In this document: piece by piece, positions 24,807 through 30,323 of the stretch
Layout of the letters: every line of letters begins with the position of its first letter
Position numbering within the stretch: position 1 is the first letter of the stretch
From: Muricea muricata
Lineage: Eukaryota > Cnidaria > Anthozoa > Malacalcyonacea > Plexauridae
Length of the DNA stretch: 64,000 bases
Direction of reading: 5' to 3'
Assembly (NCBI GenBank): GCA_963855995.1
Contig: OY979717.1
Coordinates: 23,710,746-23,774,745 of the forward strand
Position numbers and translations under genes: made by a program
Notes under the pieces: model-generated
The model's database searches: none
What the model was told of the DNA's origin: nothing
What the model saw: only the letters and a program-made list of their open reading frames with translations

Positions 24807-25320
24807 CCAGCGCTAAAATTCAAAGCAGTGCTGGAGTACGAACTAGAACGCAAAAAGTAACGCAGAAACAACGCCACCATGGTCAACTATAAATAAAACA
24901 AACCTACAATAAAAATACATCAACATAATTTTAAACCAAATTCCAGATACAATATGGTGACAACCGGAAACTTCATCTTATATGCATGAAAAGATCAGCA
25001 TATGCATGTTAGTTTCCATCGCGGTGATGGCGCCTCATAAGGATTTTATTTAGAAATTAACGGGGGGGGACTGGAAATATTGAATTTAAGCTTGGAAATG
25101 AGGTGACCCATCTAAGCAATAGGAACGAAATTTCCTTACCCTCCCTTTGGGTCTAGCATGAAACACCATGACCCTCCCCTCTATCATCAGATGATTTAAT
25201 ACAAAAGTTCAGTTTAGTTACACACACACATAAAACGTTTACACCATAAAACTCAATACATTTTCATTCTAAAATACGTTTATTTGACATTGTAACATAC
25301 AGCATTGGAGCATTGGAGCA

Positions 25321-28300
25321 TTAATAGTCTGACTCTGAAGCTGACATCTGATCACTTGATTCTCCTATTTCACCTAACACCATGTCCTCATCACTGAAAC
25401 ACGTAGGTAATGTCTCTTCATATTCATGTTCAGAATTATATTCATATTCAGAATCGTATTCTTCCTCATCAATGCGTTTTCTTTTGTTAGACTGTAAGTG
25501 ATCAATAATAGCATTGACTTTTTGTGACTTTTTTCCTCTTTTCACAGCAAGCAAATTGTGCTTCTTAATGTATTTGTCTAGAATAGGTACACGCTGTTTT
25601 GCTAAAGTTCCATCATTCAGCATTTCGTTCCAGTCAAACTCTTCATAAGACATTGCGTTCTCTGTCAAATTCTTTTTTTTTTCTTTTCTGTTTTTCGTTT
25701 TTCACTCATCATCTCTAAATGATTTAGATGTTTCAGGTACGTCTTCACAATATTTTCTTCAACAATATATCTATTACAAAATGTTTGAATGCTTGCACAG
25801 TCCTCGATGCCGAGTCCTCGATATTTCTGTAGGCTTGCTTTAAACACGCTCTTGGGTGAAAATCATGCACTTCTCTCATTGTATTACTATTTATGTTTGT
25901 GACTGGTGTTTCTTCAACAGGTAGGTAGTGGTACTTTGGGAGTTATTGGTGTCCGGAACTGGACGAGGAGTTGGGATCACTGATTTATTTTGAAAGTACT
26001 CATGAAACATTTCTCCAGCAATCATGCATGATGTGGTGGCTTCGTCTAATTTTTTGAAATAGTTGTGTCCTGGGACTATTGCTTTTCTCACCTCTGACTT
26101 TGCAGCACTGTATTTCTGAAGATATTCGGTATTAAAAAAGAACTGCTGCTCTTTTGTATCTGTGACATAGGCTTTCATGCAGTCACCAGCTGGTCCAGGC
26201 TCATCATCAATTCTTGACACAACATCCTGGGCAACTTTCCAGGCATTCAGCTCCATTGCTTCTGCTTCAAGGTTCTTTATTTCTTCAACTGTTAGTGTTC
26301 CTATTTCTCCTTCACTAATGAGATCATTTGCTTTATAATATTCCCAGTGTAATGCTCTGCCATCAACCAAAGCTTCACCTATAGCAGCATTCGAACGCTC
26401 TGCTTCATTTTGTCCTGAATCGTGTGGTGCCCTGTGTATCCTGTTCATATGAGTCCAGCCATTAATACGCGACATCTCAAGGTCTCTGTACTTAACCTCG
26501 ATGTTAGTGACACCAACACCTGGACCAGCATCTGTTGCTTGAAGAATGTAGTTGCATAGGGGTGGCAAATCCAGACCTTTAATGAAAGCAATTCCATCAT
26601 CGCAAAGGTTAACAACGTTTTTTTGATGTACCCAAAGTGTATTTGCACTTAATGTTGAGCTGGTAATGTTGATTTCATCAATCACTTCCTGAATGGTGTT
26701 TATTATGCCCATGAGCTCAGTTCCACAGGAAACCTCGTGCTGGACTAGTGCTTCCTTCTCTTCATTGAACAAACTAATGGCTTCAGACAGCTGGTGTTTC
26801 AACCACTTTAGCTTTTTCATTTCATATTCTTTAAACTTACATTTAGGGTTATTTGTAACACACATAGCATCGCTCTCCAGTGTACAATCCTTGAAATAAA
26901 ACAATACATCATGCACACGATGAGAAAATTTCCTCAGGGGCAATGCATTCATAAATGGATGTTGATGTTGTTAGTTGTTCAAAAAGCTGAGGAACTTCCC
27001 ATTTAATCTTAAGTTGATCAGAAGCCCATACACTTCCTGGACTTCCAGTGTTGGGGCGCACAGTTACAACTGTTTGGTCCTCTTGGTGAACAAACTTTTG
27101 TTCTTCATCAATGTTTGCAACTTTGCCTCTAATAAACCGAAAATAAGATGGTGTTTGGTGAACTTTATTCTCAAAAAAATCATGTTGGGGTAGTGCTTTT
27201 TGTTTGGAAGGATCAGAGACATCATATATAACACCCTTTTTAACATTCCTTGCTCCCACATCTCTGCCAGGTCTGATATAAGCTTTGCCATCAAAGCTGA
27301 TTAAAAGACTTCTATTTTTATTTTCTTCGTTGAACATGTCAAGCTTACAGTTTCGAATATGAGCTCTTTGGTGGTGGGTTGCTAAGCCCAATTCAGTTTC
27401 CGTTTTGGGAGGATTTTTGGAACAAAATAGGGACTTTCCAATATGTGCTTTTGCAGCTCTTGAATTTATATTCTTTGGTCTGCGTCTGTTAAGTACAGTT
27501 GTAGATGATTTGATAAGCTTTTTACCACGACATTGTAAGTTATAATTAGCCAGTGACAAAAAGTGACGCTTCTTTACACGATCATGACGTCTACCATGTG
27601 CTGTGCTTGTTTCTTCAAAAGAACGTGCTATAAATTCTTCATCATCTGTATCCAAAGACCTCTTCGCACCTGCTCCCAGTTTGCGCCTTTTCACTCTATT
27701 CTCATCGATAAGGGTTCTAGCTAATCTTCGCTTCCTTTGTTGCAATCCTCTAATACTCTGAGGATCGTTTTGTTGTAGATCTTCGCTGCAGTCACAACTT
27801 TATGAAGTAACTTTACAGCATTGTCTGGCTTAATGCCTAGCTCTTGCACCTTCTTCCTTGAAGCGGTAGAGAATATCATGGCCTTTAAAACAGATTTGTC
27901 GTATTCTGTATCCACAGACTGCAACACTCTATTAAATGACTCAACATTTAAATTAAATCTTGAAAATGTTTCCATATCTTTGGACTGGAGTTTGTCAAGC
28001 TCAATAAGAAACTTGCTAGTATCTACAGTATCATTTTGCATAATATTGCATATCAAGCATTGTTATCACATAAACACATAGCCCATATTCATCATTTAAA
28101 AGGTGATCACGAAATTCTTTATCCTCCACTTCTCTGCACATAAAACCACAAAATATACCATAGCCCTCATCATAGGGGAGATACCAAACGCTTTAGATCC
28201 ATCATAGCATGCCAATAGCTGTCTAAGAATACATAACAGACCTTCCAAAATCCGAGTTTTAATAGTGTTTTTTCTAAAACACAGAAATTCCTTCCAGCTT

Positions 28301-28465
28301 TTCCAAGTTCTCACTCACTTTGCATGATTGCAATGATTTCCTAACGTTTTCGGTCAATATAGACTCTAACCTGATTTTGCTTCTTTTCTCTGAGAAATTT
28401 AACCTTTCTTTGTTATTTTTGAATGTCAAGTCTCCTTCTTTATCAACACTTAGTTTGTCAGCCAT
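25321..28465 (-). pseudogene. DDE-type transposase-like gene with SAP-like C-terminus, frameshifted
   Basis: Minus-strand pieces in order: 28465-28274 (MADKLSVDKEG), 28314-28096, 28056-27721, 27745-26909, 26952-25891, 25847-25665 and 25668-25321. Successive pieces change frame near 28290, 27740, 26940 and in an A-run near 25675, so this copy is broken. Candidate RNase H-fold acidic residues are LLISFDGKAY (near 27290), ATDAGPGVGVTN (near 26525) and DSGQNEAERSNAAIG (near 26405); D, D and E in this order suit a DDE transposase, which is inference. The last 115 residues have a SAP-like helix pair (VPILDKYIKKHNL...KVNAIIDHL) and an acidic tail. From memory, similar uncharacterised proteins are multicopy in corals and molluscs. 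Confidence 0.7.
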
Positions 28466-28527
28466 TTTGTTTAAGATACATTAAATGATGTATACTTGAA
28501 GTAGGAAACAATATACTGCTATACCAA

Positions 28528-29831
28528 ATGCCTGACTGCCCAGAAATTACGCATTCTCTCTTTGTCATTTGTGAATTATGTATGATCATGACATGTCAAG
28601 AAACACAAAAAAGCGAATGTACAAGTTCAAATGATCAGCCAATATCTACTTTTCTAAAGTTTGCAGACTTGGGAAAGTTTGAGACAATATTTGAGAGTTT
28701 TGGTGTGCACAAATTTGAGCATTTAAGTGATGTTCAAGTTGAAGATCTATACAAGTTCGGTAAGCAGTATGAAACTAATTAATCTTTCAATCTAGTTGTT
28801 TTGATAGTGTTTTACCATAGACTGCCCTAATACCGCTTTACTTATAGGACTTACTGATATTGAGATACGGCGATTTACTCGAAAAAAGCAAGAATTTTAT
28901 AAATCGCAGTGTTCCAGTACAAGCGTAGTTAATGAGACAGACATGATTTAAGTTCTGGAGATAGACCCGCAGAGTTTTAAAGACAAGTTGGGACCTGTAA
29001 AACCATATCGACCACCTCCTCGATGGAAATCTACATCAATGGGATTTGTTCCTAATGCAACAACAACAGCAGCTGTTTTCATGAATTCTTTTCTCCCTGA
29101 GTTTTATAAAGCAAAGTTTTAAGTATTCAAAAAGTGTTAAAGAATTCCATGGTACCGGAAGACAGTTGTACCAATCAATGCAGCAAATTGGTGTTCTAGA
29201 AAAGCAAATTGACTCTTTAATGAGCATAGACAATCCTGCTGCAGTTGGGGTTGTTCTTGACAGTCATTATAGTTTGGTTCCTAGCGATACTATCAGAATA
29301 ACCAACAACATTCAGAAGACCAAACAAATCACTACTAATCTCAGTTCTATTCGTAATGATGTAACAGTCATGAACGACAAACTATTCAGTTCTTCGGGGG
29401 TATTACGCCATGGAGAGGAAGCCACCCATAAGGCTTTGGAGCAACAAATTGAGAAAATCAACTTCCTCAAAACCAGAGTAAAAGATATCCATGGTAACCT
29501 TTCAAAGTTGAAAGAAAACTGTTCGAGTATGTTTATAGTGTCATATGCTAGGCCAATGAGCAAAAAAAGAAAACAAAAGCAAAATAAAAGGAAAGCCAAA
29601 AAAGCTAAAGAAGTAAGAAGAGAAGCCAACTGTCAAAGAGTTGTTGAAATCATTGCCCCCCGGCAAGTGAATGACAGTTCAGAGCCTATCAGTGCATTGC
29701 TCCTTCATTTTGAAGGGATAAGTGGACTATCCAAGGCACACAAACCATATGTCCAACTTGCTTTTGACAAAGAATTATTTACAAAAAGAGTCACAAGATG
29801 TCATCAAACAATATTTATGTTTCAGTTTTGA
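28528..29831 (+). pseudogene. SAM-domain accessory protein of the transposon, interrupted
   Basis: Exon 1 (28528-28759) ends at a GT donor inside a SAM domain and exon 2 starts at 28848 after an AG; joined, they give FLKFADLGKFETIF ... DLYKFGLTDIEIRRFTRKKQEF, a full SAM-type helical bundle, normally a protein-protein oligomerisation domain. Reading continues past an in-frame TAA at 28949 with coherent residues (QSFKDKLGPVKPYRPPPRW), then a one-base insertion in a T run near 29120 shifts to the frame 29130-29831. That part is coiled-coil-like, with a Lys/Arg-rich segment (KKRKQKQNKRKAKKAKEVRR), and ends just as a GAT repeat begins. It is transcribed away from the transposase. It could mediate transposase assembly or DNA binding; that is a guess. 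Confidence 0.65.
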
Positions 29832-29992
29832 TGATGATGATGATGCTGCTGCTGCTGCTGCTGCTGCTGATGATGATGATGATGATGATGATGATGATGA
29901 TGATGATGATGATGATGATGATGATGATGATGATGATGATGATGATGATGATGATGATGATGATGATGATGATGATGATGATGATGATGATG
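29830..29992 (+). repeat. GAT/GCT trinucleotide microsatellite
   Basis: A short GAT run, about eight GCT units, then about forty GAT units. It overlaps the stop codon of the SAM-domain gene: in the gene's own frame the first unit supplies TGA, while a shifted frame would encode Asp/Ala homopolymers. No host gene is indicated. Confidence 0.95.
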
Positions 29993-30323
29993 AAAACAAA
30001 ACAAAAGAAATAGATTAAGACTTTTTTGCCTATATGTTATTAACTTACCTACAAAATAGTTGTGATATGCTTTATTGTTTTTGTTGCTGTTGTGGTTTTA
30101 ATATAGTATTTGAACTAAACATGGCACTATTTTTTTCTAATCTATTTATACTGTGTACTAACAGCTGTACGAGCATAAGAATAAATTTGAATGACCCTCC
30201 CCTTAAAAGAAGCTCATTTTTCTTCACCCTCTCTTTTTTAGGATCTTAAAAAACTATGACCCTCCCCACCTTTCCACCCCCCCTCCCCTCTGTTAATTTC
30301 TGACAAGTCCCTTAAGCGGCGCC

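Follow-up and report, generated by a model that had tools for sequence, protein, structure and literature searches.

An inactive DNA transposon of Muricea muricata and its conserved SAM-domain partner gene

The stretch of DNA analysed here, 64,000 nucleotides of contig OY979717.1 of the cnidarian Muricea muricata (GCA_963855995.1, positions 23,710,746 to 23,774,745 of the forward strand) and referred to below as the window, contains a real but inactive two-gene DNA transposon, in which a candidate transposase gene lies head to head with a spliced gene for a conserved SAM-domain protein. The two genes occur together within termini that are flanked by TWA (TTA or TAA) and are homologous between two divergent families, and in both genes protein change between the families is limited. 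It would appear that the SAM protein contributes to the working of the element and is more than a passenger. Our reading, to which we would give a probability of roughly 0.6, is that the window holds the inactive remains of a cut-and-paste transposon that, when functional, depends on two proteins, both encoded by the element. Possibly it belongs to a superfamily that has not been described. To our knowledge two-protein transposons are few, and the need for a second protein is understood mainly from PIF/Harbinger.

Copies, termini and target site

The long copies of family 1 are the window element itself and two others that are about 95% identical and have both genes present, so that the pair is found in three of the three. 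Copy A (L009, C2:50982353-50987405) has lost its right end, copy B (L010, C1:41659547-41665513) has both ends with TTA on each side and a repeated element nested within it. Among the rows scored, nothing but these three long copies was matched by the SAM-gene part of the DNA query. With copy B as the query a second family is reached at about 70% DNA identity, and the head-to-head pair of SAM gene and transposase gene is present in four of its four copies. Two of these were read for their ends (C13:5943310-5950371 and C2:60786813-60796043, ends computed), with termini of GGGACTGGTCATAATTTAGCAGGGGGG, to within a few bases, that are homologous to the family-1 termini, and for the further two (C13:5876071 and C1:41446057) the SAM gene was covered in its near part only. 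An initial annotation of this DNA had proposed that a spliced SAM gene and a DDE-type transposase candidate of no assigned superfamily are paired in one transposon; this pairing is borne out by seven of seven copies from the two families, within homologous TWA-flanked termini, but the ends it named have had to be replaced.

Those ends were inverted sequences starting with GGCGCC, thought to enclose the two genes. When the interval between them was used as the query for a DNA search of the 453-Mb, 74-contig genome (GGCGCC being query bases 1-6 and 5290-5295), at least 111 match rows were returned, the majority of them short copies consisting of both ends. Among the matches listed, those of other copies begin no earlier than query base 21 and stop no later than 5292, mostly at about 5284-5288, and GGCGCC is absent from all flanks displayed for the copies read (8-13 bases per flank). 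The true terminus common to the copies is GGGACTTGTCAGAAATTAACAGGGGGG, with GGGACTTGTCAG... shared among them and TWA on the flank, and GGCGCC, which sits just outside it, is ruled out as the terminus by the match limits and by this shared TWA-flanked sequence. There are four occurrences of GGCGCC in the window, two of them away from the element. On the basis of the homology boundary with other copies and the TWA-flanked termini, the element (unstranded) is redefined as 25041..30311. Its right terminus at 30311 is sound and was found directly (reverse complement GGGACTTGTCAGAAATTAACAGAGGGG), its left terminus is decayed (GGATTTTATTTAGAAATTAAC) and probably lies at about 25041, where it is placed by alignment. 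The same termini, starting GGGACT in families 1 and 2, are carried by short deletion derivatives as well as by other copies.

A search of 30 loci gave 13 rows with both ends, of which L027 was left out as its right match is spurious, with four errors, and L034 was left out as the same insertion as L033 (the flanks of L034 are TAA/TGA). In the 11 distinct family-1 insertions that remain TTA or TAA is duplicated perfectly nine times, the duplication being imperfect in L030 (TTG/TTA) and L036. Within family 2 a TWA duplication is found in both of the two copies read for ends (TAA in one and TTA in the other). On the right side of the window copy the 3-bp target duplication reads TTA (30312..30314, unstranded), in a register taken from the duplications of other copies, and is mismatched to the TAA of the left flank at 25038-25040. 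A TTAA target, which is hinted at by the window's right flank, was rejected because only three bases, TTA or TAA, repeat and the fourth is inconsistent.

Several of the copies show further rearrangements. In a number of short ones (L020-L027, for example L023 at about 250-760) the left end of the element runs into another sequence, TACTCCGCCTGCCGTAGGCGAGGCGGAG..., which these copies also have in common, a pattern that would fit the spread of a compound non-autonomous element. What is apparently one short insertion (L033/L034) is seen at two places on C1 about 49 Mb apart, in opposite orientation and with near-matching 8-base flanks, perhaps as part of a duplicated segment. The element nested in copy B (L010 2182-2844) is multicopy, about 660 bp long, has inverted ends and has many relatives in the genome. 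One family-2 transposase is interrupted by an almost perfect palindrome (99%) some 1.48 kb long (C13 ~5946020-5947495, L062 and L064 joined), and the open reading frames (ORFs) on the two arms of the palindrome have most of a peptide in common.

The two genes and their conservation

As the initial annotation described, the genes of the window copy diverge from a gap of about 60 bp, their start codons being at 28465 (minus strand) and 28528 (plus strand) with 62 bp between them (28466..28527, unstranded) that probably hold a shared promoter. Both genes of this copy are disrupted by frameshifts and a stop. The transposase gene remnant (25321..28465, minus strand), recognised from its open pieces and from relatives at the protein level in families 2-4, is open only piecewise (28277-28480, 28034-28192, 27724-28062, 26912-27799, 25894-26970, 25748-25942 and 25324-25701) because of frameshifts and a deletion near 27784, the roughly 204 bp lost there being present in the other two long copies. 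The transposase frame is broken in all three long family-1 copies, and no intact transposase was found among the copies read.

The SAM gene begins with exon 1 (28528..28759, plus strand), an ORF whose profile match identifies the first half of the SAM domain, followed by an 88-bp GT-AG intron (28760..28847, plus strand) that splits the domain and is placed by splicing and by the other copies. The remainder (28848..30018, plus strand) encodes the second half of the domain, coiled-coil-like and basic segments and an Asp-rich GAT repeat, and is interrupted in the window by a stop at 28949 and by frameshifts. Against Pfam cut-offs of 25 bits for SAM_TNK and 20.5 bits for SAM_2, with peptides spliced by hand, unspliced exon 1 of the window reaches 21.0 bits for SAM_TNK, under the cut-off, and the spliced peptide 33.7 bits (E 3.8e-8), whilst the spliced domain of family 2 scores 34.8 bits. 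SAM_2 scores are 20.7 in family 1 and 24.3 in family 2, both over the cut-off. The intron is kept in all three long family-1 copies and is at the identical residue in family 2, and the rise in score on splicing confirms the split SAM domain of the initial annotation. A search of the PDB with the SAM peptide gave only weak matches, the best being to Ephrin-receptor SAM domains (E 0.018), and Pfam scans of the pieces of families 1-3 gave no Myb or MADF match for this second gene. The Asp tract itself is a TGA/GAT trinucleotide repeat of 55 units (29829-29993) in the window, against a much shorter run in copies A and B.

The larger protein is probably a DDE transposase, a label given because of the termini, the target duplication and the layout of its motifs. 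All three D/D/E candidate motifs that had been named (FDGK, TDAGPG and QNEAER) are found in the minus-strand gene. The first candidate catalytic Asp (FDGK, 27290..27292, minus strand) is kept wherever a piece from families 1-4 covers the position, the second (TDAGPG, 26530..26532, minus strand) in families 1-3 where the stretch survives, and the candidate Glu, the second of NEAER (26398..26400, minus strand), in families 1-3. The first Glu of that motif (26404..26406, minus strand) is an alternative candidate and either could be the acting one, because of two decayed family-2 copies one has lost the first (L063, NKAER) and the other the second (L069, NEAKR). More widely, (F/M)D(G/D)KAY.RP, VRPK..(I/T)GSSGSVW, TDAGPG.G..N and QNEAER are largely retained in families 1-3. 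In copy A, where the motifs are altered to FDDK and NEAEH, 253 residues separate the two Asp candidates and 43 separate the second Asp from the Glu. A SAP-like C-terminus had also been suggested for this protein, however no SAP match was obtained with C-terminal pieces of three family-1 copies, at E up to 1 in one scan and up to 5 in another. Sequence searches of the PDB gave nothing useful, no close relatives turned up in viral contigs with two queries at the protein level or with a pair of degenerate patterns, and a pattern search of prokaryote genomes gave three matches that are unrelated judging by their context.

It is the comparison of families 1 and 2 that ties the SAM gene to the element. 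Silent sites are near saturation, with a proportion of silent differences (pS) of 0.69-0.82, yet both genes have changed only to a limited extent at the protein level, and it is because of this that the SAM gene is taken to belong to the element and to have worked with the transposase. The proportion of amino-acid-changing differences (pN) is 0.27 and 0.20 in the SAM exons, and in the middle of the SAM protein it is 0.31 against a pS of 0.78 over 192 codons, a stretch that is simply whatever aligned gap-free (49% amino-acid identity over 192 residues). In two transposase blocks pN is 0.13 and 0.16, values that are low partly by choice because the blocks were selected as conserved; the 0.13 belongs to a 70-codon block containing the second Asp and the Glu, where pS is 0.82.

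Two more distant families are each represented by one decayed copy. The transposase of family 3 (L086, C1:43047386) is 50-60% identical in its best blocks and 32% in the helical part, and that of family 4 (L087, at C2:3450095) is more distant still.

Neighbouring features of the window

The window contains several features outside the element. At 52600-54696 there is another transposon-like element, with 459-bp inverted repeat arms that are 97% identical and GGCGCC near both outer ends. From their motifs, the ORFs at 7389-9949 and 48141-49169 (minus strand) are presumably P-element-type and Mutator-type transposase-like genes. Two further ORFs on the minus strand (18246-18728 and 35369-35899), with 93% DNA identity, flank the element on either side; this pair, which we take to be D-2-hydroxyacid-dehydrogenase-like, is probably a duplicated host gene.

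Alternative readings and known systems

A number of results weigh against a two-protein transposon of the kind proposed. No Pfam transposase model was matched by the scanned pieces of families 1-3, nor did five window pieces give a transposase match in NCBIfam. AlphaFold models reached a mean predicted local distance difference test score (pLDDT) of 33.4 from a 6-row alignment and 45.6 from a 17-row alignment drawn from four families, the sole confident part being helical (residues 149-277, between the Asp motifs), and in both models pLDDT is below 50 at the three acidic motifs and the RNase H fold, which we would expect of such an enzyme, was not obtained. Constraint within family 1 is weak, with pN/pS of 0.52-0.66 against the window copy and, between copies A and B, 1.58 for the transposase and 0.58 for the SAM gene, as is expected because these copies are decaying or dead. 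The SAM partner may also not be universal because families 3 and 4 lack a clear SAM gene: in L086 a 13-residue SAM-like stretch was seen by eye in the correct orientation before the sequence breaks off, protein searches of it with SAM queries from families 1 and 2 gave nothing at E <0.6, and in family 4 (L087 and L088) no SAM gene was found in about 3.5 kb upstream. Within families 1 and 2 the two genes were not found apart, but in family 3 the partner is only hinted at and in family 4 none was found; these copies being single and decayed, they neither prove nor exclude a form without SAM. Finally, polymerisation, DNA binding and nuclear import are proposed properties of the SAM protein.

It could be argued from families 3 and 4, and from the fact that introns and tankyrase-like SAM domains are typical of host genes, that the element has captured its SAM gene from the host and carries it as a passenger with no role in transposition. 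This we consider very unlikely, as the gene is present in seven of seven copies across two families with near-saturated silent sites, its orientation and intron residue are constant and its protein is conserved. The element might instead be a member of some other known superfamily whose target duplications are short, such as Academ, Zator or CACTA, and which is poorly represented in the libraries searched. Target duplications are 3-4 bp in Academ and 2-3 bp in CACTA, whose termini (CACTA/EnSpm) begin CACTA/G. Zator makes duplications of 3 bp, according to PMC10045372. On the other side, the Pfam scan of pieces gave no transposase, helicase or nuclease match, and the termini here begin GGGACT, which rules out CACTA/EnSpm; on balance such a placement is rather doubtful.

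Harbinger elements prefer a TWA target and have short terminal inverted repeats (TIRs) starting with GG. The element could be a far-diverged member of PIF/Harbinger (PHIS) whose Myb/MADF gene has been replaced by the SAM gene and whose transposase is too divergent for sequence models. In its favour are the TWA 3-bp duplication (nine of 11 insertions in family 1, two of two in family 2), the terminal GGG and the two genes, which recall the Harbinger plan of two genes, short TIRs and 3-bp duplications set out in PMC9179366 and PMC9710019. Such membership fails, however, because neither the transposase profile nor the partner fits: no Pfam transposase was matched in the scanned pieces of three families and there is no Myb-like match. 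We also take the 253 residues between the Asp candidates to be far above the Harbinger spacing, and overall this placement seems unlikely.

Returning to an obligate pair of element-encoded proteins, a mechanism can be sketched. The larger protein would act as a DDE transposase whose first and second Asp are separated by a helical insertion, cutting at the GGGACTTGTC ends and joining these to TWA targets with a 3-bp stagger. Its obligate partner would be the SAM protein, with its SAM domain, coiled-coil-like and strongly basic segments, the basic and coiled-coil parts possibly binding the ends or the transposase and bringing the complex into the nucleus. The SAM domain, nearest to the tankyrase type, may multimerise and so bring the two ends together. 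It is tentatively suggested, as a possibility that falls well short of even odds, that the element represents an undescribed superfamily in which SAM proteins in tankyrase-like chains are an obligate assembly factor for end pairing, convergent with PIF/Harbinger in its target choice and two-gene plan. A pair whose second protein is unrelated to that of PIF/Harbinger, and which is conserved across two families, would suggest that a different domain is able to do the partner's job, be it end pairing or import, and a SAM polymer offers a testable route to building a transposition complex. For annotation, the termini and TWA site provide an entry point to many short repeats of the genome. Among the papers listed, none on a SAM-domain partner of a transposon was found, Repbase and most subscription journals being outside the search.

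For the SAM domain the closest known system is tankyrase, whose SAM domain is the best Pfam match in both families, although the scanned pieces of the partner have no ankyrin-repeat or PARP match. Tankyrase SAM domains polymerise, going by the titles of PMC4980433 and PMC9712121, and from this best match we would guess that the SAM domain here may do likewise. Amongst transposons, Kolobok (including KolobokP) is a eukaryotic DDE group of several lineages with differing accessory genes and termini that start with two purines, as outlined in PMC9587614. The element resembles it in those termini and in the variation of accessory genes among lineages, but Kolobok duplicates 4-bp TTAA where the element duplicates 3-bp TWA, and Kolobok/piggyBac membership was rejected since only TTA or TAA repeats. 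In ISL2EU (PHIS) too a second ORF accompanies the transposase gene, however it encodes a YqaJ-type exonuclease and not a SAM protein, and most Spy elements have one ORF, as described in PMC9179366.

The nearest likeness in overall plan is to PIF/Harbinger, with two genes, one of them probably for a DDE transposase, a 3-bp TWA duplication, a short TIR starting with GG and short deletion derivatives, whereas the element differs in a transposase that is not seen by Pfam, in the long stretch between its Asp candidates and in having SAM in place of Myb/MADF as the partner. In PIF/Harbinger the Myb/MADF protein is reported, in PMC9179366 and PMC9710019, to carry the transposase to the nucleus, and the SAM protein may play a comparable part by means of an unrelated domain.

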